A stretch of DNA of 64,000 nucleotides from Citricoccus sp. K5 (GTDB lineage: Bacteria > Actinomycetota > Actinomycetes > Actinomycetales > Micrococcaceae): the NCBI RefSeq assembly GCF_902506195.1, contig NZ_LR732819.1:1-64000 (forward strand), in the 5' to 3' direction. A program made the translations under genes and the position numbers. The stretch's first letter is position 1, and every line of letters begins with the position of its first letter. The notes beneath the pieces were generated by a model, which was not told where the DNA came from, searched no databases, and saw only the letters and a program-made list of their open reading frames with translations. Shown here in pieces: positions 1 through 16,457 of this stretch.

Positions 1-133
1 GCCCGCCCGAGCATCCGGGTTGGCCGCTTGAGCCCGCCGGCAACGGCGGGCCTAGATGGATGGCCGTCGCTGGGAAGCGGGTGACCGCTCCCGGTACAGA
101 ACCCGGCGTACAAGCCAGCCTGTCCCGCTTACC
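1..133 (+). ncRNA. rnpB: RNase P RNA, 3' part (5' part lies before the window)
   Basis: This is the catalytic RNA of RNase P, which matures tRNA 5' ends. The stretch carries the conserved bacterial type-A 3' blocks in order: CTTGAGCC near 28-35, GGCCTAGATGGATGGCCGTC at 49-68, and ACAGAACCCGGCGTA at 96-110, followed by bases that would form the closing P1 strand to about 133. The same order is present at the 3' end of the E. coli RNA. Bases from 96 on are shared exactly with the prophage's own attP at 44581, so the phage supplies the last ~38 bases and the gene stays intact after integration. The exact 3' end is an estimate. Confidence 0.92.
96..133 (+). other. attL core: left prophage boundary inside rnpB
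   Basis: Base 96 is the first position where the left flank agrees with the internal phage junction at 44581; base 95 is t against c at 44580. The identity core therefore starts at 96 and probably ends near the rnpB 3' end. The right limit cannot be fixed because attR lies outside the window. Confidence 0.8.
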
Positions 134-140
134 TCTGCTA

Positions 141-182
141 ACGCCCCTGTATTGCCTCTAGATTGCGGTGATCCAGGGGCGT
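141..182. repeat. Inverted repeat just after rnpB
   Basis: ACGCCCCTG at 141-149 is complementary to CAGGGGCGT at 174-182, a 9 bp stem with a 24-base loop. It follows the rnpB 3' end directly. It could end rnpB transcription or be part of attP; there is no T-run to support a classical terminator. Confidence 0.5.
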
Positions 183-236
183 CGGCATATCGGACAGTCG
201 AACGGATGTACTAGAAGTTGTGGTCCATTCGGGCCC

Positions 237-270
237 TCTGTGGCGGCTCAACCGCCACAGAACCGCCACA
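237..270. repeat. P'-arm integrase arm-type sites (copy 1)
   Basis: Two direct copies of ACCGCCACA start 11 bases apart (251-259, 262-270), and an inverted copy lies at 237-246. The same motif, again as two copies 11 bases apart, sits on the other side of the core at 44526-44545. Paired short repeats on both sides of a tyrosine-integrase core are typical arm-binding sites. Confidence 0.65.
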
Positions 271-274
271 GATT

Positions 275-904
275 TCAGTCCCGCCATCCGGGTAGGTCCC
301 GGTCCAGGGCGCGGCGCTGCTCGGTGGGGAGTTTCCCGGTGCGGTGTCTGGTGCGCTGGTGGCCGATCCAGTCGCTCAGTGGGTCTTCCGGACCGGCAGA
401 CCTCGGCCACCGGTCGTGCTCTCTCCGGAACTGGACGGCGTCGATCAGGCGGAGTCTCCATGCTGCGTCGTGGTGAAGGCTGCGGGTGTCCGTCTTCCAG
501 CCGGGGATCGTCTCGTCGAGCCACCGGGCCCGGTGCACGGCCAGCCGTCCTAGCTTGTGCTCGGAGCGCTGCGTGGACAGCCATTGGGAGAGGGGCCCCT
601 CGGGATCGTCGTAGGAGTTCCGGTACGGGCGCCGGCCGTGCTCCTCAATGAACGCCATCACGCGGGCGTGGGCGGCCTTCCACCGACGGTCGCGATCCAC
701 GACCGTCGTGGGCCGTGGCCGGGGCTGGTCGTGGAGGTACAGGCGGCCGGCCACCATCTCGGGGTACTTGTGTGTGATGCGGCCCAGGTAGTCACGGACC
801 TTCTGCACGGGGTGGTCGTTGAGCTCGGCGATCTTCTCGGGGGTGATGCCCTGCCGGTAGAACAGCACCCACTCCGGGTGGAGTAGGCGGGGGCTGTCGG
901 TCAT
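275..904 (-). CDS. HTH plus two helicase-associated (HA) domains, phage accessory protein
   Basis: A 209-residue protein. Residues ~17-45 look like a helix-turn-helix (GITPEKIAEL...). Two repeated units follow at about 73-136 and 148-208, each with an aromatic-rich pattern ending in LxxxxPGW. These match the helicase-associated domain found at the C-terminus of many actinobacterial helicases, but no helicase motor is present here. Such free-standing HA proteins are presumed nucleic-acid binders. It is the gene closest to attL and reads toward rnpB. Its function is unknown; a DNA-binding role is inferred. Confidence 0.72.
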   Translation of the reverse strand: MTDSPRLLHPEWVLFYRQGITPEKIAELNDHPVQKVRDYLGRITHKYPEMVAGRLYLHDQPRPRPTTVVDRDRRWKAAHARVMAFIEEHGRRPYRNSYDDPEGPLSQWLSTQRSEHKLGRLAVHRARWLDETIPGWKTDTRSLHHDAAWRLRLIDAVQFRREHDRWPRSAGPEDPLSDWIGHQRTRHRTGKLPTEQRRALDRDLPGWRD

Positions 905-960
905 ACGAGTCAGATTAGCTTCTCTAGCATCCGCTGAGATTGACGAATGCTAGCGACTGC

Positions 961-991
961 GGGGACGCGCCGACCGTCCTGGAGCGTCCCC
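961..991 (-). terminator. Hairpin after the Tat-secreted protein gene
   Basis: GGGGACGC at 961-968 pairs with GCGTCCCC at 984-991, an 8 bp GC stem with a 15-base loop just downstream of the stop at 1004 for leftward transcription. A second 7 bp inverted repeat (CTAGCAT/ATGCTAG, 924-953) lies next to it. There is no clear T-run. Confidence 0.5.
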
Positions 992-1003
992 ACGGGGTCG
1001 TGC

Positions 1004-1882
1004 TTATCGGTTCAGTCGAACATCTGTGATGCCGTCGTGCGCGATGTCCAGCCGCTCAACGGTATTACCTTGCCGCAGTTCAATCACACCGGATCGCAAG
1101 ACACTAGAGACGCGCAAGGACAAGTACATCTCCGACTTCCAGGTCACGCGTGGCAAGAACTCAACGCGAGTCACGGAACTACCGAGGTTCACTGGCTGAT
1201 CCGTAGTGAACCGCACAAGACCCTGGAAGTAGGTGAACCCACTTTCGGAGTGATCAGTCTTTGGCTCGGAGAACTCGAGTTTCCCCGACGTCGATTCATT
1301 CGACAGCATCGTCGATTCAATTCGCCCTTGCCACCGACCAACCTCCGGGATGTCAGGAAAGATGTCCTCGCTGCGATCTGGCGTCTCGGCCTTGAGTAAG
1401 AAATCCGAGACGAATTCAGCACCGGGCAACAATTGCGCAGAAACACCGTCTGACGCCCGAGTATGGGACAACCAGAGACCTAAGCTGTCGAGTCCTTCGC
1501 CCCCTGGGAGGGACCCGCTAGGATAGAGCCCCGTTCCACTGGCATTGGAGTAGGCGAAAGGCTCTGTCGGACTCGCGATAGCGGCACGATCACCCCCGAC
1601 GTCCTTATTCTCGGCCCAGTTGTAACGCAAGGCCTCTTTGCTACTGCTTGATCCGGCATTTTTTCTTGCAGCCGCCTGACGGCCAGCGTGGACCGTGCCG
1701 ACGTGCCCGGCATCAACGCCGATGGACACGGTCATCCCCGCCTGAAGCCCCACAAGCAAATCGGACGCCTGTGGGCTCCGGACGGGACTGGCGCTGGCTA
1801 CGCCTTGACCGACCAGGGCAGTCGAAGATACTGATATGAGGGTGCCAAGGAGTACATTTCTTCGCGACAGATTTCGCGCCAT
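1004..1882 (-). CDS. Tat-exported protein of unknown function
   Basis: A 292-residue protein with a twin-arginine signal: residues 6-12 are SRRNVLL, followed by a hydrophobic stretch and a likely cleavage site after ASA near residue 32. The mature part has no family I recognise; it is rich in Ser, Gly and acidic residues, with a beta-rich-looking C-terminus (residues ~200-290). Base composition is visibly lower in GC than the late operon. It lies beyond the late terminator with the second lysin and the HA protein, so it is probably a separately expressed cargo gene that modifies the lysogen's surface or surroundings. Confidence 0.75.
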   Translation of the reverse strand: MARNLSRRNVLLGTLISVSSTALVGQGVASASPVRSPQASDLLVGLQAGMTVSIGVDAGHVGTVHAGRQAAARKNAGSSSSKEALRYNWAENKDVGGDRAAIASPTEPFAYSNASGTGLYPSGSLPGGEGLDSLGLWLSHTRASDGVSAQLLPGAEFVSDFLLKAETPDRSEDIFPDIPEVGRWQGRIESTMLSNESTSGKLEFSEPKTDHSESGFTYFQGLVRFTTDQPVNLGSSVTRVEFLPRVTWKSEMYLSLRVSSVLRSGVIELRQGNTVERLDIAHDGITDVRLNR

Positions 1883-2048
1883 GTGTTTCGCCCGTCTTTT
1901 CGGAACTCGAACTTGCTACGCCTGGCCAATCTCTGCGGTGTCCAGGCCAGCCATCAGGGCGAAGCCCAATGACTTGAGCGCAGTGAATCCCAGACAGAGA
2001 CTCACGCTAAGAGGTGCGATGACCCCACCGAGGAGGTCAGGCGCTAAA

Positions 2049-2873
2049 TCAGGACAGACCGAATGAGGCAACCAAGCTTGCGTGCCCGGCATCGGTGAGC
2101 GAAATGACCGGGATCCCTGCGGCCCGTGCCTGCTCAATTACCGAAACGTGCACCCCGGCGAAGACGCCGCCCGACAGAACTCGACCCTTGCTGGCCCCGT
2201 AAAGAAAAAGCACTTCATCCTCCTGATAGTTACCATATGTGGGATCATCCGGGAAATCACCGGTGTCTCGTAAACGATCACCCGAAAGTGACCAGCCGTA
2301 TTGACTGAGCCATGAAATCGGGTTTCTGTGAGTAGTCTGATCGGTCACCCAAGACTCAAAATGCAAGTGGACATTCGCTGTACCCGTGTTGCCCATCGTT
2401 GCGATTCGCTGACCTCGGCCGACTCTCTGACCCTGAGACACGCGAGGATCACTGATGTGACCGTAGAACGAGAGCGTGCCGTCCGGGTGTCGAATGCCGA
2501 TATGTTGACCATTCCGATTCGGAACAACATAGGAGCCGACGAACTCCACTTGGCCATTAGCTGCGGCGAAAATTGCCGGGCGGGTGTTGGGAGTGACGCC
2601 AGCAATGTCGATCCCGTAATGATACGCATCCAAGTATGGATCCTCGTCACGCCATTCACGATACCCATAAATATCGGTCAATCGGGCGCCATCAATTGTG
2701 GGCATGAAGCGTTCCCATCTAAAAGTTATCCCGTCTAATGCGCCTGGAATCTCCCTTAGATTTTCCTGGCCGTTCCCTGCAAACCGTAGTTCAACGAGCG
2801 CTTCATGAAAACCCCTCACACGAAATTTGCGCCACCTTTTTTCGACGATGGTTCTGCGATGCGATGAATGCAT
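2049..2873 (-). CDS. M23 family peptidoglycan endopeptidase (second lysin)
   Basis: A zinc endopeptidase predicted to cut peptidoglycan cross-links. The M23 signature is complete: H85-x-G-x-D89, H139 in YGH, and H169-x-H171. The Met-57 start (base 2705) begins with MPTIDGARLTDIYG, which parallels the N-terminus of the first lysin at 4261, so the real protein may be 218 residues. Neither start has a good ribosome site. After the catalytic domain both lysins share an NPxSxLxQYGW segment; this one then has its own ~60-residue tail with a GAxxGRVLSGG motif. The gene is lower in GC than the late genes and lies past their terminator. Confidence 0.85.
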   Translation of the reverse strand: MHSSHRRTIVEKRWRKFRVRGFHEALVELRFAGNGQENLREIPGALDGITFRWERFMPTIDGARLTDIYGYREWRDEDPYLDAYHYGIDIAGVTPNTRPAIFAAANGQVEFVGSYVVPNRNGQHIGIRHPDGTLSFYGHISDPRVSQGQRVGRGQRIATMGNTGTANVHLHFESWVTDQTTHRNPISWLSQYGWSLSGDRLRDTGDFPDDPTYGNYQEDEVLFLYGASKGRVLSGGVFAGVHVSVIEQARAAGIPVISLTDAGHASLVASFGLS

Positions 2874-2937
2874 GCTGTCAGGCTCATTGGAGGCGACAAA
2901 AGTGAATAGGCGACGACATGACCATTAACAGACGGAA

Positions 2938-2973
2938 GGGCCCCACCAACCTCGAGTGAGGTGGTGGGGGCCC
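2938..2973 (-). terminator. Strong terminator of the late operon
   Basis: GGGCCCCACCA pairs with TGGTGGGGGCCC across a central CCTC/GAGG stem and a GAGT loop (one bulge), a very stable hairpin 54 bases past the holin stop. Reading leftward it is followed by a T-rich tract (TTCCGTCTGTTAATGG). It separates the late genes from the cargo segment. Confidence 0.85.
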
Positions 2974-3026
2974 GCCGGGGAGGTCGGCCATGTAGGCCGT
3001 CAGGGTTGGCTTTGTGTGACCGGCTA

Positions 3027-3347
3027 TTAGGCGACGTGGCGGCCAGGTTCCTTCTCGACGCCGGTGCCGAGGCCGATGCGCTCGAGCAGCTTGTTGACGC
3101 CGGGGATGGCCATGATGCGGGCGGCGATCGCGCCGATGGCCACGACGACGCCGGAGACGGCCAGGAGCGGGCCGCGGGTCTGCTCGGGCAGGCCCTCCTC
3201 CTGGACGATGGCGTCGATGATCGGCGGGCCGAGGACCACGATGCCGACGGCCACGGCCACGAGGGTCTGCACCACGGTGCGGACCGTGGTCTTCGCCGGG
3301 TGAGCAACCTGAGTCGGCGTGCCGGGTGCGAGCTGGGTGACAGCCAT
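3027..3347 (-). CDS. Holin-like membrane protein
   Basis: A 106-residue protein with two hydrophobic helices (~25-47 and ~59-81) and charged ends, the topology of small actinophage holins that open the membrane for the endolysin. The ATG at 3347 has AGGAGG seven bases upstream, which fixes this start over longer readings. It follows the endolysin stop by two bases and is the last gene before the late terminator. Assignment rests on topology and position; the family is not otherwise recognised. Confidence 0.75.
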   Translation of the reverse strand: MAVTQLAPGTPTQVAHPAKTTVRTVVQTLVAVAVGIVVLGPPIIDAIVQEEGLPEQTRGPLLAVSGVVVAIGAIAARIMAIPGVNKLLERIGLGTGVEKEPGRHVA

Positions 3348-3349
3348 GG

Positions 3350-3724
3350 TCAGGCCTCCTTCACGGTATTGACGGCGGGGGCGAGGGTGCGCACGCGGTC
3401 GGGTTCCACCGTGCCCGCGTTCTCGGCGGACTCCACGAGCGCGGAGAGCTTGCCGTCGATGCGCTGGAGGACGCCGGAGAGGTAGACCTCGACCTGCTGA
3501 CCGGTCTCGGGGTCGATGACCCATGCGGACGTGCGGCTGGTGGTGCCAACGATGGCGCGGAGCTCGTTGACGGTGGAGCGCACCTCGGCGAGGGTGTCAG
3601 CGAGGCTGTCCCCGGCGTCCCGTGCGGCCTCTTCGTCGTGCTTACCGAGCTGCTGGACGTGGCCACCGGAGATCTGAGCTCGGATCTGGGCCAGTTCATG
3701 CATGATCTTGCTGACATCACTCAC
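3350..3724 (-). CDS. Nested in-frame product: C-terminal domain of the endolysin
   Basis: GTG at 3724 is preceded by AAGGAG at an eight-base distance, as good a start as any in the operon, and lies exactly at the junction between linker and C-terminal domain. It would give a 124-residue protein (MSDVSKIMHE...). In several known lysins an internal start makes a free C-terminal domain that assembles with the full-length enzyme. Here the start is seen in the sequence; use of it is inferred. Confidence 0.6.
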   Translation of the reverse strand: MSDVSKIMHELAQIRAQISGGHVQQLGKHDEEAARDAGDSLADTLAEVRSTVNELRAIVGTTSRTSAWVIDPETGQQVEVYLSGVLQRIDGKLSALVESAENAGTVEPDRVRTLAPAVNTVKEA

Positions 3725-4261
3725 GGTGAGTTCTCCTTCTTGGGGTGCTGGTGCTGCGGGGATGATGGCGGACGGCTTATCGGTGGAACTGGACGGGGTG
3801 GCGGTGGCGCGGCCGTCCCATTCGTCGTAGAGCCGACCGTCCTTGATGACCCACCCGTACTGGGCGAGCCTGCTGAGAGGGTTGAACACGCTGCGGTGGT
3901 CGCGGTAGTCGTCCCACCATTCGAAGTGGAGGTGGATGCCGTTGGACAGGGGGATGCCGGTGTGCCATGTCTCGGCGATCACCTCGCCGCGCTTGACCTG
4001 TTGGCCCGGCTTGACCTTGTGGCGGCGGGTGTGGAGGTAGGCGGTCAGTGACCCGTCCGGGTGCCGGATGCCGATGGCCGGGCCGGAGCGCAGTGGGATG
4101 GTCTTGATCCACTCCATGACGCCATCTGCTGCGGCCTTGGCGAACACGGACTCGCCGGGCGTAGGGCCGCCGAAGTCCACGCCCCAGTGGTCTCGTGGCC
4201 CGTTGTCGATGTCACGCTTCCCGAAGGCGCTGGTGAACCGGGATCGGTCTTCTACTGGCAT
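3350..4261 (-). CDS. M23 family endolysin with coiled-coil C-terminal domain
   Basis: A 303-residue phage lysin. The catalytic M23 domain (1-150) has all zinc ligands: H25-W-G-V-D29, H77 and H110-L-H112. A Pro/Ser/Thr linker (~153-176) leads to a C-terminal domain (180-303) with a long predicted coiled coil, probably for oligomerisation or wall binding. The ATG at 4261 is chosen because AGGAG lies eight bases upstream. Valine 180 is a GTG with its own strong ribosome site, so a shorter product is likely (separate entry). The gene is followed directly by the holin. Confidence 0.9.
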   Translation of the reverse strand: MPVEDRSRFTSAFGKRDIDNGPRDHWGVDFGGPTPGESVFAKAAADGVMEWIKTIPLRSGPAIGIRHPDGSLTAYLHTRRHKVKPGQQVKRGEVIAETWHTGIPLSNGIHLHFEWWDDYRDHRSVFNPLSRLAQYGWVIKDGRLYDEWDGRATATPSSSTDKPSAIIPAAPAPQEGELTVSDVSKIMHELAQIRAQISGGHVQQLGKHDEEAARDAGDSLADTLAEVRSTVNELRAIVGTTSRTSAWVIDPETGQQVEVYLSGVLQRIDGKLSALVESAENAGTVEPDRVRTLAPAVNTVKEA

Positions 4262-4263
4262 GG

Positions 4264-4536
4264 TCAGTTCTCCTGGTCTTCGGGGATGGGTGGCAGCTCC
4301 TGGTAGGGGGTTCCCTTGTCGATGAGAAGTCGGCGGACCAGGTGGGCGTGTTCGCGCCAGAGGTACCAGAACCGGCGGGACCTGCCGGCCTCTATTCGGG
4401 CCTCGTCGAGCTTGGTGGCCATCCGCTGGGCTTCGTCCTTCTTGCCGACGCTCCATTGACGGATCCCGTCATAGGCGGCCTTGAGGATGAACCCTCCGGG
4501 TACGGAAATGAGTGCGGTGATGATTGCTGGGTCCAC
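4264..4536 (-). CDS. Small membrane protein of the lysis region
   Basis: A 90-residue protein starting at GTG with GGGAGGGG upstream. Residues ~5-24 form one hydrophobic segment (IITALISVPGGFILKAAY), followed by a charged, Arg/Lys-rich cytosolic tail. It lies two bases upstream of the endolysin start. A single-pass protein here could assist lysis, for example as a second holin or pinholin-like factor, but there is no direct support. Confidence 0.65.
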   Translation of the reverse strand: MDPAIITALISVPGGFILKAAYDGIRQWSVGKKDEAQRMATKLDEARIEAGRSRRFWYLWREHAHLVRRLLIDKGTPYQELPPIPEDQEN

Positions 4537-4560
4537 GCTGGCCCCTCCCTCTCGCTGTGG

Positions 4561-5016
4561 TCAGCGGTTTCGGCGTGCCGGATCGTATGGCCGGTCCCAG
4601 ATGCGGACCATGCGGACGATGACGTGGCCTATCAGTCCGAGCACGACGGACAGCTGCAGCAGCCGGTTGCCGGCTGAGGTGATCTGGAGGGTGCCGATGA
4701 TGACGGCGTAGATGGTGGCCGCGGTGACGATGAGCATGGTGGCGTAGCGCTCGACCCACCACCATCCGGGCAGCACGGCCACCGCCCCGATTGCGCCGCC
4801 GATGGCGAGCATTCCGGCCAGCATGAGCATTGAAATTAGGCCGATCTGTCCGGCGATGGATGTGGGCGGATCCCAGAGGGCGGCGATGCCGCCGCACAGC
4901 AGCACGGTGTACGTGAAGAAGTGGATGAGGGCGACGACACGGGGTTCGTGAATGCGGAGCCAGAGCCGGCGCAGCGCGCCGGTCCCGGCTGGTTCGAGGA
5001 CGTTGGCTTGCGTCAT
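4561..5016 (-). CDS. Four-helix phage membrane protein
   Basis: A 151-residue protein with four predicted membrane spans (about 27-46, 55-82, 91-109 and 120-138) and short charged termini. The start has AAGGAGG close upstream. It lies between the tail fibre gene and the lysis genes, a position where actinophages often carry membrane proteins of unknown role. Confidence 0.7.
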   Translation of the reverse strand: MTQANVLEPAGTGALRRLWLRIHEPRVVALIHFFTYTVLLCGGIAALWDPPTSIAGQIGLISMLMLAGMLAIGGAIGAVAVLPGWWWVERYATMLIVTAATIYAVIIGTLQITSAGNRLLQLSVVLGLIGHVIVRMVRIWDRPYDPARRNR

Positions 5017-5035
5017 CTGCCCTCCTTGAGCATGG

Positions 5036-5068
5036 CAGAGGCCCCGACCGGTGTGGTCAGGGCCTCTG
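5036..5068 (-). terminator. Hairpin between tail and lysis genes
   Basis: CAGAGGCCC (5036-5044) pairs with GGGCCTCTG (5060-5068), with a further four-base stem inside. It lies between the tail protein stop (5147) and the next start (5016). Without a T-run it may attenuate rather than end late transcription, or protect the upstream mRNA. Confidence 0.55.
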
Positions 5069-5146
5069 TTCTGGTTGTGCTCGGATTGTGGTGATCAGGG
5101 CGTGAATGGTGGACCGGATGAGGTCGACCTAGTGGGTGCCGTTGCG

Positions 5147-8100
5147 TCAGTCGATGGGGTAGGTGACGCCGTCCAAGGAGATCCAGGACGGCACGGTGGT
5201 GAGTCCGGTCTGGGACATGGTGCCGTCGGTGGCGATGTTGAGGCGGTAGGGCGCCGTTTGGGCTGTCCATGCGCGGACATTGAGCAGCTGCGGGTATGTC
5301 GGCCGCGCCTCGGCGGGCAGAACCGACATGGCAGTGGTGGCCATGGCACCGCTGAGGACCCCACGCAAGCGAACGGTCTTTCCCTCACGGCGCCACTGCG
5401 GCCCGGCATAGCCCTGACCGAATGCTGTCCAGCCGTTCCGAAGGGGGATGAAAGCCCACTGGCCGCCCGCCTGCTTATCGACGTAGGCCTTCGTGGTGAG
5501 CTGCGCCTCGGACTCGACAGGCTGTGGCATGTTCCAGTTGCCGTCAGCGGCGTAGGAGTAGGCCGGTCCTTCGAGTGCGAGGCCGCCGACCAGCCGGTCG
5601 ATCTGCGCCTCGGCGGCCCACATGTGCCCGTCGCGGGCGGAGACGTACCAGAGCGCGTCGCCGGACTGCGCGCCAGCAGTGCCGACGCTGATGCCGTTCG
5701 TGTTCATGTAGACCGAGTTGTGGGCCCCGACCACATGGTCGGACGGCACGGGCGTGGTCTGGATCTTGCCGCCCTCGATGATGCCGTTAGGCCCGACGAT
5801 GAGCTTGCCCGTCGCGGAGTCGAAGTGCAACATGAGATTGCCATTCGGATCGAATGACCGAATGCCCTGGCCGTCCCACTTCAGTCCCCGGTTCGCTGCG
5901 GCCAGTGTTTCGAACAGCGCGCCCACGAAGCGGCCGCCGGTAAAGGTCTGGCCCTCGAAGGCATTGGCCTTGATCATGCCTGCCGTGATTTCCACGAACT
6001 GGCCCAGCGCCGCCCACAGCGTTTCCGTCACTGTCATCTTGTCAGTGGTGACAGCCCCGTCCTTGAGGAGTGTCCCGCCGATCCAGGCCTCAGTGGCCTG
6101 CAGCCTCTCGATAACAGCCATAGCCGCGTAGAGCTGATCCGCATAGGCGTCGGCAAACTGGGCCTTCTCCGTGACGGAGAGGGTCTTCATGGCTGCCGAG
6201 ATAAGGGTGGCGTTATTGGCAAACAGGCTCCCCTGCACCACCAACTCGTCCTCGATCAGCGCCCGATTGGCCCCGAAGATGTCCGTGATCAGTTCGTCGG
6301 TGACAGTGATCTTAGAGGCGTCGATAGCCCCATCCTTGATGAGGACGCCACTGATCCACGCCTGGATTCCGACCGTGAGGCGGTTGATGATCGCCTGGTT
6401 GGCCAGGAGCTTCTGCGTGACCAGCTCGGCCACCTCGGCGCTGCCGGCGGTCAGCTTGCCCACGTCCAGGTTGGCGATGGCCGCACTGTCGATCGGGGTG
6501 GAGACCCAGGCGTTGTTCACCCGGTTCCACTGGCCAATGACACGACCGGACAGGGTGCTCTGGTGCTGCCACCAGATTGAGCCGTTCGGAGCCGTGCCCG
6601 ACGGGCCGGCCGTGCCGTGCAGCACCTTCGGCAGGCTGTCAGCGTGCTTGATAGCGTCGGACTTCGCCGTCGCGGCGGCATCCATCGCGGCATCGGCGTG
6701 GTTCCACGCCTTGCCGGCCTCGCCGTGTGCGCTGTCGGCCCTGTTCTGCGCGGCCAGCGCAGCTTGCTCAAGCCTCTTCACATCGGTGACGTTCTTCAAC
6801 TCGAGGTCGTCAACCCAGATGTTCTTCTGAGTACTACCCATTGCGAACGCGAAGCGCGCCGCCAAGTGAGTCACATTCGCAGGTACAACGTACTCAACTG
6901 CCTGATGCTTCCAGTCAAGGCTTTCTGTCATGGCCGTAGAGGCCACGTCGGTCAGGACGCCAGCGGCCCCCTTGCCACGCAACCGCAAACCACCAGGAGT
7001 GCCAGAGATGAATCCAGCTTCGGTCTTGTACCACCACGAGTAGCGCCAGATCTGCCCGGCCTGCACGGGGAACTCTGCCTGGCTTGCCGCGCCATTGTTG
7101 TTAGTCCGAAAAGAAGATCCGCCAGAACGGGACACAGAGGTGTCAACAGTGCCACCGGAGTGCTCGCGGTTCCATCCGGTCCAGCCCTGCTCGAACGAGC
7201 CGTTGGCTACCATATTCTCGGTGGACTTGTAGGCCTCGACAGCGGCGGACATGGCGGCATCAAACTTTTCCTGAGCATCAGCAGCGGCAGCACTGATCGC
7301 CCCGCTCTTGGCCGCGTCAGCCTTCGCCGTAGCGTCGAGCTTGGCCAGCCGGAGGGCCTCTGCCTGAGCGGCATCAGCCTTGGTCGTCGCGTCAGCCTTG
7401 GCCTGCTTGATGGCCTCAGCCTGAGCAGCGTCAGCCTTAGCCTTCGCGTCGGCTGCAGCAGCAGCTTTGGCCGCGTTCTCTGCGGCGGTAGCCAGCCGTT
7501 TAGCCTCCGCTTCCGCTGCGGTCTGCGCCGCTCCGGACTTGCTGGTGGCATCGAGCTTGGCGTCGGCAAGGGCCTTGTCGGCTTTGGTCTTGGCGTCGGC
7601 AGCGGCGGTCGCCTCAGCAGCAGACTGGGCGGCAGCGGCCTCCGCTTCGGCGAGTCGTTTGGCCTCAGCCTCAGCGGCGGTGCGAGCGTTGTTGGCCTTG
7701 GTCGTAGCGTCGGAGGCGGCAGCCTGGATGGCGGCATTTTTCGCGGCCGTGTCACCCTGCTGGAACGCCTGCGTGAGGGCGGCGTCCAGATCGGACAGGG
7801 CTTCGGCGGCTTCGCCGGCCACAGCCTCGGTTCGCCCCTCTGCGGCTTCCAGGCGGGTGTCCACGCCGTCCACGCGGAGCTGCAGTGCGGCGGCCGTAGA
7901 CTGGGCATCCGTGCCGGCCTTCTTGGCCTCCTGCGCGGCGATTTCGAGGCGGACCACGTCGGTCACATCACGGAGGACCACGTCGTCAATCAGAAAGTGA
8001 GCCGCCTTGGTTGCCAGACCGGACCGAAAGATCCTAGGGCGCACCATATTTACGTCGGCTGGAAGTGTGTACCGAAGCGCGCCGGAATCCTGCCAGTCCA

Positions 8101-9172
8101 TGGTGGACTCGGTATTCCTCCAGTACCCAGATACATACGCCCCGGATTCGTCCATCAGGGCGGCCACGATCTGCGCCCCGACAGCGGCATCGTTTGCTGC
8201 CTTGAAGTAATACTGCAGCTCCCAGATCTGCCCCTCCACAACGGGCATGAACGACTCTGGCGTGATCCCGTCGCCCACTGAACCGATGAGCGCGGAGTGG
8301 GAGCCGGAATGGCCCTCGTCGGCAAGAACAGCATTGCCGGTCCAGTACTGCAATCCCGCCTCGAAGTTGCCGTTGGCCAGCCGGGTCATCGCCCTGTTGT
8401 TGGCCTCGGTCGCCCGTGCCTCGGCGGCGATGGCGGCGTTGGTCGCGATCTCGACGTTCTTCTCTGCCGCTTCCACCTGACCGGGCAGCGGCTCGAGGAT
8501 GATTTCTAGCTCACCTTGCCGGCTGACAGCGGCGTCGATGTCCGTGCGGGCTTCTGTGGCCTTCTGGTCCAGAGTGACCATGCGGGCGTCGGCCGTCTCC
8601 GCGTACTCCGCCAGTTCCTCACGGGCCGCGGCCAGCACGGCCTTGATGTCGTCCACGTTGACCAGCACGGAGGGGGCCACCCCGTCAGACGCCGGACCAG
8701 GATCGGAACGGTTGCCCGTGGTATCGGCAGCGATGGCACGGAAGAACACCGGCACGTTAGCCTCCCGGCCGGCCACCGGCAGCACGCCGCCGCCACCAAG
8801 GGTGCCTACGGCCTCCCACTCATCGTCAGGCGCGGTGGCTGACAGGGCGGCGTACACGGTGGTGCTGGCAAAGTCGTCCGGCATCGACTGGCCGTCCTCA
8901 CCCAGCCCGTCCCACTGCGGCAACAGGACACCGTACCGCTCTGCCGTCACCAGCTTGGATGGGGCCTGCGGCGGGACGGTATCCACTGGGATGTCCTCTA
9001 GCGGCAGGCCTTCGATGTGGCCACCCGGGCCGATGACCATCACCTCGCCGTCATCCACGGACGAGTTGGCCAGGGAGAACCCTGCCTCAAGAGACCTGGC
9101 ACGGCGGTCCAGTGCCTTCATCGTGGTCACCATCGGACCCTGATCCAGGGTGAGGGGGTTACGGTCTGCCAA
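5147..9172 (-). CDS. Large minor tail / receptor-binding fibre protein
   Basis: A 1341-residue tail-tip protein. A fibronectin-III-like domain is suggested near 64-170. Two jelly-roll-like modules, each opening with the ANG(N/S)FE pattern seen in carbohydrate-binding modules, lie near 260-390 and 655-795. Between them is ~250 residues of Ala/Lys/Asp/Glu repeats, probably a trimeric coiled coil. After ~850 come repeated ITV-type beta-fibre segments, then LTTKAYVD near 1215, a motif common in tail fibres, and a terminal beta domain. The start is TTG with AGGA upstream. Likely role: adhesion to the cell wall of the host. Confidence 0.85.
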   Translation of the reverse strand: MADRNPLTLDQGPMVTTMKALDRRARSLEAGFSLANSSVDDGEVMVIGPGGHIEGLPLEDIPVDTVPPQAPSKLVTAERYGVLLPQWDGLGEDGQSMPDDFASTTVYAALSATAPDDEWEAVGTLGGGGVLPVAGREANVPVFFRAIAADTTGNRSDPGPASDGVAPSVLVNVDDIKAVLAAAREELAEYAETADARMVTLDQKATEARTDIDAAVSRQGELEIILEPLPGQVEAAEKNVEIATNAAIAAEARATEANNRAMTRLANGNFEAGLQYWTGNAVLADEGHSGSHSALIGSVGDGITPESFMPVVEGQIWELQYYFKAANDAAVGAQIVAALMDESGAYVSGYWRNTESTMDWQDSGALRYTLPADVNMVRPRIFRSGLATKAAHFLIDDVVLRDVTDVVRLEIAAQEAKKAGTDAQSTAAALQLRVDGVDTRLEAAEGRTEAVAGEAAEALSDLDAALTQAFQQGDTAAKNAAIQAAASDATTKANNARTAAEAEAKRLAEAEAAAAQSAAEATAAADAKTKADKALADAKLDATSKSGAAQTAAEAEAKRLATAAENAAKAAAAADAKAKADAAQAEAIKQAKADATTKADAAQAEALRLAKLDATAKADAAKSGAISAAAADAQEKFDAAMSAAVEAYKSTENMVANGSFEQGWTGWNREHSGGTVDTSVSRSGGSSFRTNNNGAASQAEFPVQAGQIWRYSWWYKTEAGFISGTPGGLRLRGKGAAGVLTDVASTAMTESLDWKHQAVEYVVPANVTHLAARFAFAMGSTQKNIWVDDLELKNVTDVKRLEQAALAAQNRADSAHGEAGKAWNHADAAMDAAATAKSDAIKHADSLPKVLHGTAGPSGTAPNGSIWWQHQSTLSGRVIGQWNRVNNAWVSTPIDSAAIANLDVGKLTAGSAEVAELVTQKLLANQAIINRLTVGIQAWISGVLIKDGAIDASKITVTDELITDIFGANRALIEDELVVQGSLFANNATLISAAMKTLSVTEKAQFADAYADQLYAAMAVIERLQATEAWIGGTLLKDGAVTTDKMTVTETLWAALGQFVEITAGMIKANAFEGQTFTGGRFVGALFETLAAANRGLKWDGQGIRSFDPNGNLMLHFDSATGKLIVGPNGIIEGGKIQTTPVPSDHVVGAHNSVYMNTNGISVGTAGAQSGDALWYVSARDGHMWAAEAQIDRLVGGLALEGPAYSYAADGNWNMPQPVESEAQLTTKAYVDKQAGGQWAFIPLRNGWTAFGQGYAGPQWRREGKTVRLRGVLSGAMATTAMSVLPAEARPTYPQLLNVRAWTAQTAPYRLNIATDGTMSQTGLTTVPSWISLDGVTYPID

Positions 9173-9178
9173 AGCTGG

Positions 9179-10294
9179 TCATCCTCTCAGATCAAGCTCA
9201 ATGGGGTCTGCGCCGTTCGCGCCGACGGACAGCCGGTAACCGGCCAGCCGGAACGACTTATTGGGGTTGAGGAACGGGTCCGAGTCGTCCGAGATGCGGT
9301 TCACGACCATGCCCGGCACGATCCTCAGCGCGGACTCGTTGTTGTTCAGCAGGCCAGGAAACCCATCCGGGTGGATCGTCATCCGGTGCGTGTAGTTCAT
9401 GTCGGCGTTCCGGCGGACCCGTTCCCCGGCGAAGCGGACGAGATGGTGGCGCTGGTGGGTCTTGCGATCCATCCACGCCCCGTCCAACTGGATGTACTGG
9501 GTCTCGTGGCGGAACTCGGACGCGGACGCGGTCTTGGACCCGTTGCCGACACCGAACACGTACGCCTTGTTCACCACGTTCTCGGCATCGTGCTCGACCT
9601 CGTAGTCCACGCCCGAGCCCACCAGGTTCACGTCGATCTGGTGGTCCATGTTGAGGGCGGCCTCGGACTGCATCCGCCAGTGGAACCGGCCCGTGCTGTC
9701 AGAGGTGTTGCGCTCCGGCTTGAACCAGACATCCGGTCCGCCGGACCAACCGATCACCTGTTCCACCGCGTCGGCCACCGTAATGGCCTGGTACCCCCGG
9801 TAGTTGAGCACCGTGTCGCCAGCCACCGTGTTGGACGGGAAGATGATCGGCAGGTCATCGCGCCAGGTGGCGTCATCCTTGGCGAACTGGACGATCTTCC
9901 ATGCAGCGGTCACCAAGGAGTAGGGCCCGAACTGGAGATGGGACTCGGCAGGCCGGGTGATAGCCCGGATGAGGTAGCGGCGCTTCAGCACCGACCACAG
10001 ATCCTGCATCGTCAGGGTGATCGTGTTCGCGGACTTGGTGTACTTCCGCTTCCACACCACACCGCCCCACACGGCGACACCCTTGTAGGTCACGAACAAG
10101 GACCGGATGGTCGGCAGGGTCAGCGACTCCCAGTACGACTTGCCCGCGTCGCGAACGGACGCCAGTGGGATCGTGACCGATCCGCCGACACCTGTGTTCA
10201 AGGAAATGTCCCCGTTGAACGCCGACGGGTAGATCTCCCGATGGACGACCCCGCTGTTCGTGCTCACGATGAAGAACCGCCAGTCCCGCTCCAC
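9179..10294 (-). CDS. Minor tail protein (tail hub-like)
   Basis: A 371-residue protein directly after the distal tail protein. It starts MERDWRFFIV, with a beta-rich N-terminal half and a conserved-looking block around LTMQDLWSVLKRRY. The GTG start has AGGAGG four bases upstream. Proteins of this length and place in actinophages form the tail hub or baseplate connecting Dit to the fibres. Assigned from position and general resemblance to siphovirus tail hub proteins. Confidence 0.75.
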   Translation of the reverse strand: MERDWRFFIVSTNSGVVHREIYPSAFNGDISLNTGVGGSVTIPLASVRDAGKSYWESLTLPTIRSLFVTYKGVAVWGGVVWKRKYTKSANTITLTMQDLWSVLKRRYLIRAITRPAESHLQFGPYSLVTAAWKIVQFAKDDATWRDDLPIIFPSNTVAGDTVLNYRGYQAITVADAVEQVIGWSGGPDVWFKPERNTSDSTGRFHWRMQSEAALNMDHQIDVNLVGSGVDYEVEHDAENVVNKAYVFGVGNGSKTASASEFRHETQYIQLDGAWMDRKTHQRHHLVRFAGERVRRNADMNYTHRMTIHPDGFPGLLNNNESALRIVPGMVVNRISDDSDPFLNPNKSFRLAGYRLSVGANGADPIELDLRG

Positions 10295-10303
10295 GCGGCC
10301 TCC

Positions 10304-11089
10304 TTAGATGTAGGTGTCGTACAGCCGGACCAGGTACGTGGCCGTGCTGTTCGCCCCGTCGTGGGGGATAACGTTCACCCGGCGGGACTCACTCGGCGCC
10401 ACAGACGTCAGCGTGGACCGTCCGACCGACCCGCCGGGGGCCGGGTTGCCGTTCAGGTAGACCTCGCCTGTGCCGGAGTAGATCGTCACCACATCGCCTG
10501 CGGACTGCCAGATGGCGTCCGTAAACGCAATCGGGGCGGTCGAGGACCCGTACACCGTGAACCCACCGGGGAACGTCCCAGACACCACGAAGATCGGCCA
10601 CGCCTCAGCATTGCCGTCATGGTGGATGTCGATGGCGGTCCCCGGCACGCCGTTGAACTCGTTGCGGATCCCGTACTTGTAGGGGTCTGGGGCCTTCAGC
10701 GTCATCGACAGCCGCGCCAGCTTGTCCGTGATCGGCGTGAACCGGATCGAGGAGGCACGCTCCACGTTGGCGAACTGATACTGACCCGGCCAGTGATCGT
10801 CCACACGGAACGCACCCCGCCCGCCATTGCGGCGGAACATGCCAGTGAAGACCATGCCGATCTTGTGCATGGACTCGTGCGACGGCGCGTGAATGTTGGC
10901 CGCGAATTCGATGAACCGAGCCTCGTCATAGACCGGGGCCTCGAAATCTCCGCCCCGAGCCAGGCGGGGGACTGACTGGGAACGCGTCTCCGGCGAATCC
11001 CACCAGCCGTCCAAGGTCGTGACCGTAGCCCTTACCCCATACGGCAGCGCCGACATGTTCACCCCATCGACGTAGACAATCTGGCTCAT
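10304..11089 (-). CDS. Distal tail protein (Dit-like)
   Basis: A 261-residue protein with the Dit layout: an N-terminal half with the pattern VDGVNM...GWWDSPE and a C-terminal jelly-roll-like half. It follows the tape measure gene with an ATGA overlap at 11086-11089. Dit forms the ring at the tail tip to which the fibre proteins bind. Confidence 0.82.
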   Translation of the reverse strand: MSQIVYVDGVNMSALPYGVRATVTTLDGWWDSPETRSQSVPRLARGGDFEAPVYDEARFIEFAANIHAPSHESMHKIGMVFTGMFRRNGGRGAFRVDDHWPGQYQFANVERASSIRFTPITDKLARLSMTLKAPDPYKYGIRNEFNGVPGTAIDIHHDGNAEAWPIFVVSGTFPGGFTVYGSSTAPIAFTDAIWQSAGDVVTIYSGTGEVYLNGNPAPGGSVGRSTLTSVAPSESRRVNVIPHDGANSTATYLVRLYDTYI

Positions 11090-14000
11090 AGTCCGTTGAC
11101 CTCCAATGCGTGCTGCAGATCCCCCACAGCGACCTTGGCCGCCGCTGTCGGATCAATGGTGTGGATGCCCCCGAGATTGATCTGCGGACCGCCACGCCCA
11201 CCCAGTGACGCCTCCAGTCGTTCGTAGTCGAGGCCGACGTTAATCGAGGACCCCGACCACTCCCGGCCCACCGTGCCCCCGCCCTGCAGTCCGGCGAGGT
11301 GCTGGATGGATGGGTGATCCACCCGGATCGCCTCAAGCACTCCGAGGTATTTCCGCGTCATAGGCTCCGGCTCCACAAATTCGCCATCATCCACAAGGGC
11401 TGTCGGCCTTCCGTGGGACCCAATGCCGAGGATGGTGTCCGTGCCCAACCCGTAGTAGGGCAGGCGCCCGCCATTGGCCAGGCGCGGCAGGCCGAAGTCT
11501 CGACCCACCATGCCGCCTGTGTAGCCACCGAAGCGGTTCATCATCCCGGACAGGGAACTGCTCAGGTTGTTCAGCCCGGACGCCACGAACTTCACTGACC
11601 GGGTCCGGGCCAACTGGGCGAACTCACGCTCAGCAGCCGCGGTCTCGGCATGGGCGCGGGCGACCACGTCGGTGCCCTCGATGTTGTTGATGTCCTGCTG
11701 GGTCCCGTACACGGTGCCGTTGTCATCAACCCAGACGGTGCGTTCGACACCGTTGATGTTCCGGATCTTCGCCTGGACATCGATCGTCGTTCCGTCCTCG
11801 GTGACGAAGATGTGCTCCGTCTTGCCGGTGACCTCGTTGATTTTCTCCTGCACGGAGCCGGCGGTGCCGTCTTCGGACACAGCGACGGTAACGCCCTTGT
11901 ACCCAGGGATGGCTTCGACAGCCTGCCCGGTGAACTCGGCCATACGAGCAGCAGACTCATCCATCCACGTGGACACTTCCACGTCCCGGTCGATGCCAAG
12001 CTGGGCCTTAGCCCATTCCTCGGCGGCCGTGGCATTCATCCCAGAGGCACGCGCTGTCTCGTACAGGGCGGCATACCCGGACTCGAGCTCGGCACGAACA
12101 TCTCCGTGCGCGGCCCCCTGCTCTGCCAGGGCCGCCGCAGCGTCCCACGCGGTCTCGGCGACCTCGCGGGTGGCGGCGCGGTTGGCCGCGGCCTTCTCGG
12201 TGTTCCCTTCGATGGACATGCCGTTCTCCTTGAACGACTCGGCCAGGTCCCGGAGGGACTGCTGGTGAGCATCGGTGGCCGCCTGCGCGTCGCGGTTGAT
12301 GACACCGAGGGTCATCATGGCGTCCACGATGTCCGACAGGGACTCTTCGGTTTCCTCGGCCGCTTCTCCGAGCTCGTTGATTCCTTCGGCGCCGGCCGCG
12401 GCTCCCTCGCCTGCGGCTTCTCCGCCCTCGGCGACGGCCTGCATGTGCGCCGGGAGGTTGCCCATGGCGGCCTGGAACAGGTCCGCCTCGGACGTGGCCT
12501 GCCCGGTGGCGTTGGCCGCGGCCTCCACGCCCTTCGCGTACTCCGGGAATACCCGTTGCAGTTCGGTCCAGGAGGACAGGTCCATGCGGCCAACGGACTC
12601 CGCTTCGATGCGCAGGGCGTTCATCTGTTGCGCTGCCGATTCGGCGTCCATGGTGGCCAGCGCTTGGTCCAGGGACGTGATGGTGTCCCGCACCTGTGAC
12701 ATGACGTTGTCCTGCTGGAAGACGGTGTCGCCGAAGGACTGGACGTGCTTGATCGGGTTGGACAGGTCGATGCGCTTGAGCGCGTCACCGAACCCGTTGA
12801 CGTGGGTGGTGATTCCGGAGAAGTCGAACTTGCTGTCCAGGTCGGCCGAGTCGCCGGCCTCGTTGAGTTTCAGCGTGGCGTTGGCGACTTCCTCCACGCC
12901 AGGTGCAGCGTCTCGTGTGGAGTTGTAGAGGGCGGTCAGGCCGGTCACGAGGGCAGTGATTCCGACCGCGGCACCGGTGGCGATACCACCGATACGGAGT
13001 GCCGACTTTGCCCGGGCGCCGGTGACACCGAGGCCGCGCATGGCGTCGACGGTGTCCACGACTCGGGGGGCGAGGGTAAGGAACCCGCCGGCGGCCAACA
13101 AGGCGATGCCACCGGCACCGGTCAGGGCTCCCAGTCCGGCCTTCACCGGGTCAGGCAGGGCGGAGAACACCTCGGCAATGCCACCGATGGACTCGGTCAC
13201 GGTCGCGACGACGGGCAGGATGGCCCCGCCGGCGTCGATCGCGGAGTCCTTGATCTTGTTCCAGGACACGGCGATGCGGGACTCTGCGGTCTCGTACCGC
13301 TTGGAGGCCTCGTCGGCCAGGGCGGACGCGGACGCGAATGACTCGGCGCCAGTTTCGAAGGACTCGGCGAGCAGATCCCCGGACTGGGCCAGGCGAAGCA
13401 TGGTGTCTGCCTCACGGACACCCTTCACGCCGAGGTCGGCGAGCATGCCGTTCACGTCTCCACCGTTGGCGGCAACGTCTCCCAGCCCGGAGGTGAGCAT
13501 GACCATGGCCTCGGCGGGGCGGTTCTGCCAGGCGTTGGCGAACTCCTCTGCGGAGACACCGGCCGCTTCGGCCCACCCGGTGAGGGAGTCCCCGCCTTCA
13601 CGGACGGAGGTGTCGATCTTCTTCATCACCATGGATATGGCGGTACCGCCAGCCTCAGCTTCGATGCCCACGGAGGACATCGCGGAGGCCAGGGCCATGA
13701 CCTGGTCCTCAGACATGCCCATCTGCTTGCCGACGGCGGCGACGCGCATCCCCATCATGAGGATGTCCTTCTCGGTGCTGGCGCCGTCGTTGCCGAGGGC
13801 CACGAGGGAGGATCCGAGGTTGTCGATGTCGTCCGCGCTGGTGCCCATGATGTTCATGAACTGAGCGAGGGTGGTGGCGGCCTCTTCGGCGGTGAGGTTG
13901 GTGGTCTCGCCGAGGTCGATCATGGTGCGGGTGAACGCGGCCACGTCTTCCCGTGCGATGCCGAGCTGGCCGGCTGCCTCGGCGACGGCCGCGATTTCCG

Positions 14001-14640
14001 TGTGGGTGGCCGGCAGGGTGGTGGCGAGGGTCCGGAGCTCGCCCTCGAGGGCTGCCATTTCTTCGGCTGATCCATCGACGGTCTTATTGACGCCGACCCA
14101 CGCGGTCTCCCAGTCCATGGCGGCTTTACCCATGCCAGCCGCAGCGGCAGTCAGTCCGGCCCCGGCGGCGAGGGCGACGGTACCCACCTGCTCCATGTCG
14201 CCGCGGTGGTCCTTGACGGCCTTGGAGAGACGCTCGAACTTGCCGGTTGACTGCTGTGCGGCGTCCCCGGATCCAGCGAGCTCACGTTGCAGGGCGTCCT
14301 GGGCGGATGCGGCTTCCTGGGCGGTGCGCTCAACGTCGCGCTGTGCCTTGGCCACGCCTTCCTCGGCGGCAACGATGCGGGTGGTGTCGCCGCTGGTGCG
14401 GGCGTCGTTGAGCTTCTGCTGGGCGACGCGGAGGCGGCCGGCGGCGTCAGCGGAACGGTCCTGGGCCTTGGCGGCATTCTGAGCGGCCCGCTCTTGCTTC
14501 TGCGCTGACTGCTCGGTGGCCTTGCCGGCCTTGTCTGCGGAGTCGGCGAACTTGTCGGTGACCTTCGCGGACCGCTCCATCGCCCGGTCGTACCCGGAGG
14601 TTTCGGCCTCGAACCGTGACCGTACGACTTCATCCGCCAC
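11086..14640 (-). CDS. Tape measure protein
   Basis: A 1184-residue protein that sets tail length and is carried to the cell during DNA ejection. Residues ~1-150 are a charged coiled coil; the block near 190-450 matches the TP901-type tape measure core (MDWETAWVGVNKTVDGS, NIMGTSADDIDNLGSS). Hydrophobic segments at about 495-520 and 540-575 would span membranes. The start is GTG with AAGGAGG upstream. It lies right after the frameshifted chaperones, as expected. Confidence 0.93.
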   Translation of the reverse strand: MADEVVRSRFEAETSGYDRAMERSAKVTDKFADSADKAGKATEQSAQKQERAAQNAAKAQDRSADAAGRLRVAQQKLNDARTSGDTTRIVAAEEGVAKAQRDVERTAQEAASAQDALQRELAGSGDAAQQSTGKFERLSKAVKDHRGDMEQVGTVALAAGAGLTAAAAGMGKAAMDWETAWVGVNKTVDGSAEEMAALEGELRTLATTLPATHTEIAAVAEAAGQLGIAREDVAAFTRTMIDLGETTNLTAEEAATTLAQFMNIMGTSADDIDNLGSSLVALGNDGASTEKDILMMGMRVAAVGKQMGMSEDQVMALASAMSSVGIEAEAGGTAISMVMKKIDTSVREGGDSLTGWAEAAGVSAEEFANAWQNRPAEAMVMLTSGLGDVAANGGDVNGMLADLGVKGVREADTMLRLAQSGDLLAESFETGAESFASASALADEASKRYETAESRIAVSWNKIKDSAIDAGGAILPVVATVTESIGGIAEVFSALPDPVKAGLGALTGAGGIALLAAGGFLTLAPRVVDTVDAMRGLGVTGARAKSALRIGGIATGAAVGITALVTGLTALYNSTRDAAPGVEEVANATLKLNEAGDSADLDSKFDFSGITTHVNGFGDALKRIDLSNPIKHVQSFGDTVFQQDNVMSQVRDTITSLDQALATMDAESAAQQMNALRIEAESVGRMDLSSWTELQRVFPEYAKGVEAAANATGQATSEADLFQAAMGNLPAHMQAVAEGGEAAGEGAAAGAEGINELGEAAEETEESLSDIVDAMMTLGVINRDAQAATDAHQQSLRDLAESFKENGMSIEGNTEKAAANRAATREVAETAWDAAAALAEQGAAHGDVRAELESGYAALYETARASGMNATAAEEWAKAQLGIDRDVEVSTWMDESAARMAEFTGQAVEAIPGYKGVTVAVSEDGTAGSVQEKINEVTGKTEHIFVTEDGTTIDVQAKIRNINGVERTVWVDDNGTVYGTQQDINNIEGTDVVARAHAETAAAEREFAQLARTRSVKFVASGLNNLSSSLSGMMNRFGGYTGGMVGRDFGLPRLANGGRLPYYGLGTDTILGIGSHGRPTALVDDGEFVEPEPMTRKYLGVLEAIRVDHPSIQHLAGLQGGGTVGREWSGSSINVGLDYERLEASLGGRGGPQINLGGIHTIDPTAAAKVAVGDLQHALEVNGL

Positions 14641-14652
14641 GGTGGCCTCCTT

Positions 14653-15590
14653 CTATTCGGTTGGGGTTCCGTACTTCTCGCGCCACCAGGCGGGTGCGGA
14701 TGCGACGGTGGGTGAGTCGGCTGCGGCTTCGGAGGGCACGGCGAAGAGGACGATCCCGGGGGCGGGGTCCTTGTTCTCCTTTCGCCAGCGCTGGATGGCG
14801 GCCGACGGCTCACAGATGCGGGTCTGGACGTTGTAGGCGCCGGATCCGCACTCGGTGAGGGTGCGCCCGCAGTCGGGGCAGAGCATCCGTTGGTAGAGGG
14901 TGTGGGCGTGGGTGAGCAGGTGGTCCCGATCCGTCCAAGTCCCGTCCCCGCCCACCCACGCCGACGGGGCCCGCTGGTAACGGACGCTGGTGTCGAGCAG
15001 GGCGAGGGTGGGGCGGGCGTGGTCTCGGGTCAGGACCTCGGCGAGAAAGGGGCCGTGACGCCGCCGGTCGGATCGCCGTAGGTGGCCTCGTTGAAGGCGT
15101 TCACGAGCTGCTGCCACTGGCCCTGGCCGATGGCGGAGTGCAGGGCCTTGAGTCCATCGACGGTGACGCGTTTGCCGTCGACTCGAGCGGAGGCGGCCAG
15201 CAGGGCGTAGGTGCGGCCGGCGGCGTCCTTGCGCTCTATGTCGGCGGTGGCTGCCTCAACTTCGGGGTTGATCATGCCGATGATGGTGATTTCCCGCTTC
15301 GCCTCGTCGACCTGCTCGATGAGCTCGGCCATGCGGGCCTCGATGCGGTTGAGGGCCACCTGGTGAGCGTTGGCGGACGGCTCGGCGACGGAGCGCTGCA
15401 GCTTCTCGGTCTCGGCTCGCTTGACCGCAGCGTCACGGTTGGTGTGCTCCTCGCGGAGGCGGTCGAGCTCGTCCTTGAGGCCGGGCTGGATGAGGTAGAC
15501 GGTGACGGTCTGTCGGGGCCGGTACTCGTCCGGGTCGTGGCCGGCCAGCCATCCGGTGAGGTCGAAGGTATCTGGGTCCAGGTCAGCCAC
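14653..15590 (-). CDS. Tail assembly chaperone, long form by -1 frameshift (G-T)
   Basis: Ribosomes starting at 15590 meet the heptamer CCCTTTC (15051-15045 on the minus strand), read C CCT TTC in the starting frame; slipping back one base gives CCC TTT. Decoding then continues CTC GCC GAG and runs to the stop at 14653, giving a ~312-residue fusion instead of the 186-residue short form. The downstream part has a CxxC...C zinc-like motif (CPDCGRTLTEC). Position just before the tape measure and the -1 direction match the G/G-T chaperones of long-tailed phages. Confidence 0.88.
15030..15590 (-). CDS. Tail assembly chaperone, short form (G)
   Basis: A 186-residue protein made when no frameshift occurs. 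It starts at GTG with AGGAGG six bases upstream and is rich in charged helices (residues ~50-110). It ends 15 bases after the slippery heptamer. With the long form it is thought to load onto the tape measure and recruit tail tube subunits. Confidence 0.88.
   Translation of the reverse strand: MADLDPDTFDLTGWLAGHDPDEYRPRQTVTVYLIQPGLKDELDRLREEHTNRDAAVKRAETEKLQRSVAEPSANAHQVALNRIEARMAELIEQVDEAKREITIIGMINPEVEAATADIERKDAAGRTYALLAASARVDGKRVTVDGLKALHSAIGQGQWQQLVNAFNEATYGDPTGGVTAPFSPRS
15045..15051 (-). other. Slippery heptamer CCCTTTC (programmed -1 frameshift)
   Basis: The heptamer fits X XXY YYZ exactly in the reading frame of the chaperone gene, and the -1 frame is open through it and for 130 codons beyond. 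Confidence 0.85.
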
Positions 15591-15798
15591 GAGCGGCCTC
15601 CTGGATCTGCTTGATGATGTCGTCGGCCTGCTTCGCGAGTGGCACGCCGAGGCGGTCGAGTTGGTAGTTGATCTTGGCCCCGCCGGTCAGGTGGATGATG
15701 ACCACACCTGCGTTCCGTTCGGGTATGAGTTCAGTCTGCAGGTGGGTGATGTGGTCGGCGTTGGCGTGCACCGTCGCGCCGAGGGAGATGAGTCGCAT
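15583..15798 (-). CDS. Small conserved-looking phage protein
   Basis: A 71-residue protein whose end overlaps the chaperone start by eight bases. Its ATG has AAGGAG eight bases upstream. The pattern MRLISLGATVHANADHI looks like a compact alpha/beta fold, and the C-terminal helix is amphipathic. Position between tail tube and chaperone suggests a tail assembly role; none is known to me. Confidence 0.7.
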   Translation of the reverse strand: MRLISLGATVHANADHITHLQTELIPERNAGVVIIHLTGGAKINYQLDRLGVPLAKQADDIIKQIQEAARG

Positions 15799-15846
15799 GA
15801 TGGGTTCTCCTTGATGGGTTTCGATGGGTGATCAGGAGGGGCTGGA

Positions 15847-15886: not shown

Positions 15887-15897
15887 AGTTCAGTGGG

Positions 15898-16455: not shown

Positions 16456-16457
16456 GG

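Follow-up and report, generated by a model that had tools for sequence, protein, structure and literature searches.

Evidence for prophage integration at the 3′ end of the RNase P RNA gene in Citricoccus sp. K5

Introduction

Phages that encode tyrosine integrases commonly use the 3′ ends of tRNA or tmRNA genes as integration sites. The gene rnpB, which encodes the RNase P RNA, is in general an uncommon target; it is essential, and its 3′ end includes some of the most highly conserved sequence in bacteria.

A Gordonia phage study describes 13 attB sites, 10 of which overlap tRNA genes, and neither rnpB nor RNase P is mentioned in its main text (PMC5559632). Putative tRNA-Met attB sites are described for Arthrobacter phage Galaxy (PMC5513430), and the main text of a Microbacterium phage survey contains none of the terms attB, attP, rnpB or RNase P (PMC7302621). 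In other papers the rnpB promoter is used in a construct (PMC8776855), rnpB serves for a tree (PMC2705793) or rnpB phylogenies stand in the reference lists (PMC2516327, PMC4256840, PMC3541175). No report of rnpB as attB was found in the full-text papers searched, which cover the field incompletely (most subscription papers lie outside them), and an earlier listing is possible.

The closest integrases in the phage collection searched are those of the Arthrobacter phages TripleJ (Triplejayvirus) and Kukla, with 48% identity to the integrase studied here. Like our element, both carry rnpB 3′ sequence right after the integrase gene and in the same orientation. However, they are free phage genomes, and the stretches of their records that were viewed hold no att annotation. 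An Rfam scan of the TripleJ region gave no RNase P match up to an E-value of 5, because only the 3′ tail of rnpB is present there; direct comparison found this tail. The same integrase clade also includes an element in Arthrobacter sp. MYb214 (G075, L027 and L055), whose target is again the 3′ end of an essential gene, but in this case the protein gene rpsD (ribosomal protein S4; L027, 2653-3276).

Here we analysed the first 64,000 bp (the window) of contig C3 of Citricoccus sp. K5 (Micrococcaceae), a contig of 89,192 bp in a genome of 3.88 Mb and nine contigs. As in phages that target tRNA or tmRNA genes, the phage core copies the 3′ end of a gene and the RNA is restored, but the gene in question is that of the RNase P RNA. 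The mechanism is classical, namely site-specific integration at the 3′ end of an RNA gene, whereas the target is unusual, essential and recurrent in one integrase clade.

Results and discussion

The left border lies in rnpB

When window positions 1-200 were searched with cmscan, positions 1-126 matched positions 253-367 of the Rfam model RF00010, up to the 3′ end of the model (69.3 bits, E 1.8e-21). The match is incomplete at its 5′ side because C3 starts there. A default Rfam scan of the whole window listed no RNase P entry, since the 5′-shortened gene scores under the RF00010 gathering score of 100 bits. The complete, uninterrupted gene was found at C1:1100629-1101020, where it reaches 296.1 bits, above the gathering score (class A). 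These matches confirm the original prediction, made from the letters alone, that the 3′ blocks of an RNase P RNA read across the left border. Window positions 1-127 are identical to C1:1100895-1101021 and the first difference occurs at the next base. The rnpB gene of the lysogen is thus unaltered over the reach of C3; the gene ends at C1:1101020, and its 5′ part at attL lies outside C3. No tRNA or tmRNA gene was found within the window and attB lies in rnpB, which sets the element apart from phages with tRNA or tmRNA targets.

Four junctions share a 32-bp core

The following features define the attachment sites (window coordinates unless a contig is named):

1-126, plus strand: 3′ part of host rnpB, RNase P RNA class A, by RF00010 and identity to C1:1100895-1101020; bases 1-95 are host only
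96-127, plus strand: attL core, 32 bp, including the conserved ACAGAACCCGGC block and the gene 3′ end
44581-44612, plus strand: attP core, where the right end of copy 1 is joined to the left end of copy 2
C3:89066-89097: attR core, past the window
C1:1100990-1101021: attB, uninterrupted, within the rnpB 3′ end
250-270, plus strand: two AACCGCCACA direct repeats from a pattern listing, matching between the arms; candidate arm-type sites
44525-44545, plus strand: two AACCGCCACA direct repeats across the core from the first pair, within the final part of the integrase gene; candidate arm-type sites

The 32-bp core is common to attB, attL, attP and attR, and attP and attB mismatch directly on either side of it. 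It consists of the terminal 31 bases of rnpB and one base beyond the gene, and because the phage core copies these bases the gene is restored at attL. The last 127 bases of C3 are identical to C1:1100990-1101116, and C3 overlaps C1 by 127 bases at each of its two ends. Both borders of the prophage therefore carry the gene 3′ end as a direct repeat of 32 bp, and the uninterrupted attB is present in the same assembly, as in integrations that restore their target gene. The expectation that attB would lie inside rnpB and that a displaced rnpB 3′ end would be found at attR was borne out (the displaced end also occurs at attP). The phage does carry an rnpB end, although it is 32 bp long and not about 38 bases as first thought.

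The comparison with prophage-free relatives was informative in part. All 8 of 8 same-genus genomes (own included) matched the 3′ end of the gene, but besides our genome only G133 aligned the whole query (70%). The attB site was placed from its own genome because the sequence downstream in the genus is too divergent to show an empty site.

We consider it nearly certain that the element is a prophage integrated at the 3′ end of rnpB via the 32-bp core. The tyrosine integrase would recombine the attP core with the identical rnpB 3′ end of the host, leaving rnpB restored unchanged at attL and a 32-bp rnpB fragment at attR behind the integrase gene. Alternatively, the rnpB 3′ end of the phage could be a chance or captured fragment and integration could have occurred elsewhere. 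Such fragments can stand alone: a genome of the same genus carries a 31-base fragment of the rnpB 3′ end (97%; G102:C12:10877-10908, L260 / L271) on a contig other than that of its rnpB, and no integrase was found in the first 20 kb of this contig. In Citricoccus, however, the core marks the exact point where host sequence gives way to phage sequence at either border, and the same assembly holds the uninterrupted site, which makes a captured fragment extremely improbable.

A complete-looking prophage with a tyrosine integrase

PHROG profiles were run on 17 open frames and the integrase was also searched against Pfam; the genes beside attL were scanned in their identical second copy:

275-904, minus strand: helicase-associated-domain protein
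1004-1882, minus strand: protein without Pfam match
2049-2873, minus strand: M23 peptidase
11089-14640, minus strand: tape measure (PHROG)
18636-19742, minus strand: head/maturation protease (PHROG)
22746-24404, minus strand: portal (PHROG)
24358-26046, minus strand: large terminase (PHROG)
37788-38882, minus strand: RecT-like (PHROG)
39214-40395, minus strand: RecE-like (PHROG)
41295-41930, plus strand: repressor, weak match (PHROG)
43451-44566, plus strand: tyrosine integrase of 371 aa, reading toward the attP core (PF00589, E 3.9e-19; phrog_1 integrase, E 3.1e-65)

The element is a complete-looking temperate tailed-phage prophage. The stop codon of the integrase gene lies 14 bases ahead of the attP core. 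R200, K238, H301, R304, H327 and Y337 are invariant in an alignment of 8 sequences, and we take them to be the catalytic R-K-H-R-H-Y columns. Residues 67-159, the putative core-binding part, reached 24.6 bits with PF22022, below the cut-off of 27 bits. This integrase would be the one to perform the reaction, and the AACCGCCACA pairs that flank the core would be candidates for its arm-type sites. The left-arm genes beside attL (minus strand, window 275-2873) converge on rnpB.

Two phage copies in series

The original prediction overlooked that C3 contains two identical phage copies:

96-44580, plus strand: first phage copy, 44,485 bp (exact period of 44,485; PHROG matches)
44581-64000, plus strand: start of the second phage copy, identical to 96-19515 and running on to C3:89065

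Starting at base 96, base i equals base i+44485 with zero mismatches for as long as the two copies overlap within the window, and all 66 mismatches fall in bases 1-95. Beyond the window the second copy is also identical to the first (0 mismatches in overlapping stretches of 20,000, 9,001 and 1,593 bases). The tandem may be real or it may be a path through the assembly graph. The total length and the 127-base overlaps at the ends suggest a path through a de Bruijn graph with a word length of 127. An integrated phage together with excised circles, or a true tandem, would either way yield the structure of C3.

A physical tandem, that is two prophages in series at rnpB and not one prophage and an excised circle read twice, is a real possibility to which we give somewhat less than an even chance. 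It would agree with the length of C3 (2 x 44,485 + 222) and with the attP-type junction at which the copies meet. Serial copies of another rnpB element occur in G512, where two integrase copies lie 9,752 bp apart with an rnpB core before each. On the other hand, the 127-base overlaps, the uninterrupted attB and the full identity of the copies fit a graph path through integrated and circular forms equally well, and the G512 copies match at 6,408 of 7,000 positions in an ungapped comparison, so they are related copies and not one copy read twice. This question concerns copy number only, and a physical tandem is compatible with integration at rnpB as set out above. The G512 locus (L274, G512:C1:75000-94000) holds a second kind of rnpB element, whose two serial copies have a period of 9,752 bp and are each preceded by the rnpB core and a T-run hairpin.

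The uninterrupted attB in C1 suggests that the sequenced culture contained prophage-free chromosomes; much less probably, the C1 junction reflects a second, collapsed copy of rnpB.

The same assembly features bear on whether the junction at rnpB is a chimera in which an unrelated phage and the host were joined through a short shared repeat. C3 begins and ends in host sequence with exact 127-base overlaps to C1 and traverses the phage twice without a difference, and for this reason at least part of C3 may be an assembly-graph path. However, the 32-bp core is far shorter than 127 bases, and if 127 was indeed the word length, there must have been words that ran across the junctions. In addition, the left and right host flanks together make up a single attB, and other genomes have rnpB and integrase on the same contig at distances of 4 to 55 kb, some of these contigs being several Mb long. 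We therefore regard a chimera as very unlikely and retain integration at rnpB.

Relatives of the integrase adjoin rnpB

We searched for the integrase in 295 genomes of the host family and found it at E ≤ 1e-40 in 14, our own included. Each of the 13 other genomes has one rnpB over the cut-off. In six of them (G022, G072, G274, G106, G031 and G083) the integrase is followed by an exact repeat, 27-37 bp long, of the rnpB 3′ end of the same genome, and a seventh, G239, has a partial repeat with 16 bp exact. No rnpB core was found beside the integrase in G016, G075, G011 (two integrases), G040 and G210. G108 was counted neither way; its rnpB contig stops at the core.

At the level of the order, the integrase was present in 12 of 396 genomes, nine of them new, the rest being our own genome, G031 and G106. 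The rnpB 3′ motif stands beside the integrase in eight of these nine (decayed in G570, 17 of 23) and was not found there in G397. Intact rnpB was present in the same locus in 6 of the 9 order-level loci scanned. A survey of genome contigs gave 48 loci, the best 22 of which (L048-L069) were scored for the core: 15 have it in the orientation of the window, one has it in the opposite orientation (L065) and six have none. The family and genome-contig counts must not be summed because the loci overlap (L048 = G022, L051 = G106, L057 = G083). Among 78 loci on viral contigs, 11 have the core in the same orientation as the window and score 19 or more, L099 being TripleJ itself and L123 the Arachnia prophage of L061; L127 and L097 carry it in the opposite orientation, L097 lying at a contig end and having been judged by eye. 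Many of the viral contigs break off at the integrase, and these were left unclassified.

As a background for the motif, 56 of 58 upstream control stretches scored 12-14 of 18, with one at 16 and one at 18. Both high controls are rnpB sequence, namely a second rnpB 3′ end upstream in L066 and the real core itself in L118. In a later scan with a maximum of 23, unrelated rows reached 18 and one (L081) reached 19. A score of 18 was therefore accepted only with other support (16 bp exact in G239, 27 bp in L062). In the L066 locus (about 112-2900), from a Cellulomonas MAG, one rnpB 3′ end follows the integrase and the second lies some 2 kb upstream of where the integrase ends.

Attachment pairs were aligned for the window and 18 further genomes or records, which were chosen because the core had already been seen. 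In all of them both copies align at the same position of the gene. In 16 of the 19 pairs the alignment runs without a break for 25 bp or more; it is interrupted in G300 and G308 and spans 20 bp in G304. In 8 of the 18 further pairs (G106, G295, G300, G301, G302, G303, G304 and G305) insertion is inferred from the repeat alone because rnpB and the integrase were assembled into separate contigs.

In these assemblies, relatives of the phage integrase recurrently adjoin the rnpB 3′ end, across a range of actinobacteria. The view of rnpB as a rare target thus needs to be qualified: it holds for phages in general but not among the relatives of this integrase.

The core occurs in both orientations relative to the integrase

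Both orientations of the core relative to the integrase gene occur among the relatives. In the group of the window the integrase gene points at the core and has the same direction as rnpB, so that in a lysogen the integrase lies at the end remote from rnpB. In the opposite group the integrase converges on rnpB and adjoins it where the intact gene is present. Elements of the latter kind were seen in Cellulomonas sp. B6, in G512, G357, G603, G337, G475 and G542, and in the viral contigs L127, L175, L176, L181, L182, L191 and L197. Like our element they have the same rnpB 3′ end beside related integrases, but their core points the other way with respect to the integrase gene.

In a tree of 74 integrases the nearest rows to the window were L020 and L097, and L097 appears to be of the opposite orientation. 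The window-orientation group clusters in one part of the tree, where it accounts for 31 of 54 rows and the other orientation for one. The opposite group makes up 7 of the 20 rows of the other part, and the deep split between the parts is weakly supported (65/88). Changes of label along the tree are not a count of target switches; many rows labelled "x" come from contigs that end at the integrase.

A phage-borne hairpin may replace the rnpB terminator

At attB, rnpB is followed by a perfect hairpin of 21 bp (60-nt fold -50.4 kcal/mol, z -11.5). Integration separates this host hairpin from rnpB by at least 44.5 kb and places it at attR, past the integrase gene. The phage brings a hairpin of its own:

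141-182, plus strand: phage-borne hairpin, candidate replacement terminator, separated from the core by 13 bases (60-nt fold -31.5 kcal/mol, z -6.9)

The z-score of the phage hairpin was calculated on 60 nt against dinucleotide shuffles; for the flanks compared below, a version with single-base shuffles and 55 nt gave the same picture.

In the same-orientation group, flanks facing rnpB had z ≤ -2 in 8 of 18 cases, compared with 1 of 18 controls, and on the host side this was the case for 5 of 14, compared with 1 of 14 controls. The flanks of G106, G295, G300, G301 and G305 may not be phage sequence, because rnpB and the integrase are on different contigs, and when they were set aside 6 of 13 clearly phage flanks remained at z ≤ -2 (control 1). 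The opposite-orientation group had 4 of 14 at z ≤ -2, with 2 controls, or 1 when L181 is corrected (z 0.8, control 1.3). A T-run follows the hairpin in some relatives, namely G022, G072, G296, G298 and G512.

The phage hairpin at 141-182 may plausibly take over termination from the displaced host hairpin, here and in some of the relatives. This idea is weaker than the claim of integration at rnpB. A universal replacement terminator is not claimed; hairpins are found in some relatives and not in all.

Possible significance of the site

A broader reading is that the rnpB 3′ end is the habitual docking site of a whole actinobacterial integrase clade, chosen for its near-constant sequence across hosts, and that part of the clade carries a terminator that ends the rnpB transcript in place of the host's own, with the possible effect that lysogeny alters the amount of RNase P RNA. 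We put this forward tentatively and think it rather unlikely to hold in full. An integrase clade that uses rnpB would be a natural source of integration vectors for many actinobacteria. The prophage would also offer a clean test case of how an essential ribozyme gene is kept working after its terminator has been cut off. Prophage-finding pipelines limited to tRNA and tmRNA genes would miss borders in rnpB.

Complete RF00010 genes of 182-280 bits were found among tRNA genes in eight putatively viral contigs of 20-463 kb (L189, L192, L194, L199, L203, L206, L209 and L210), six of which exceed 100 kb. These genes look like phage-encoded RNase P RNA.
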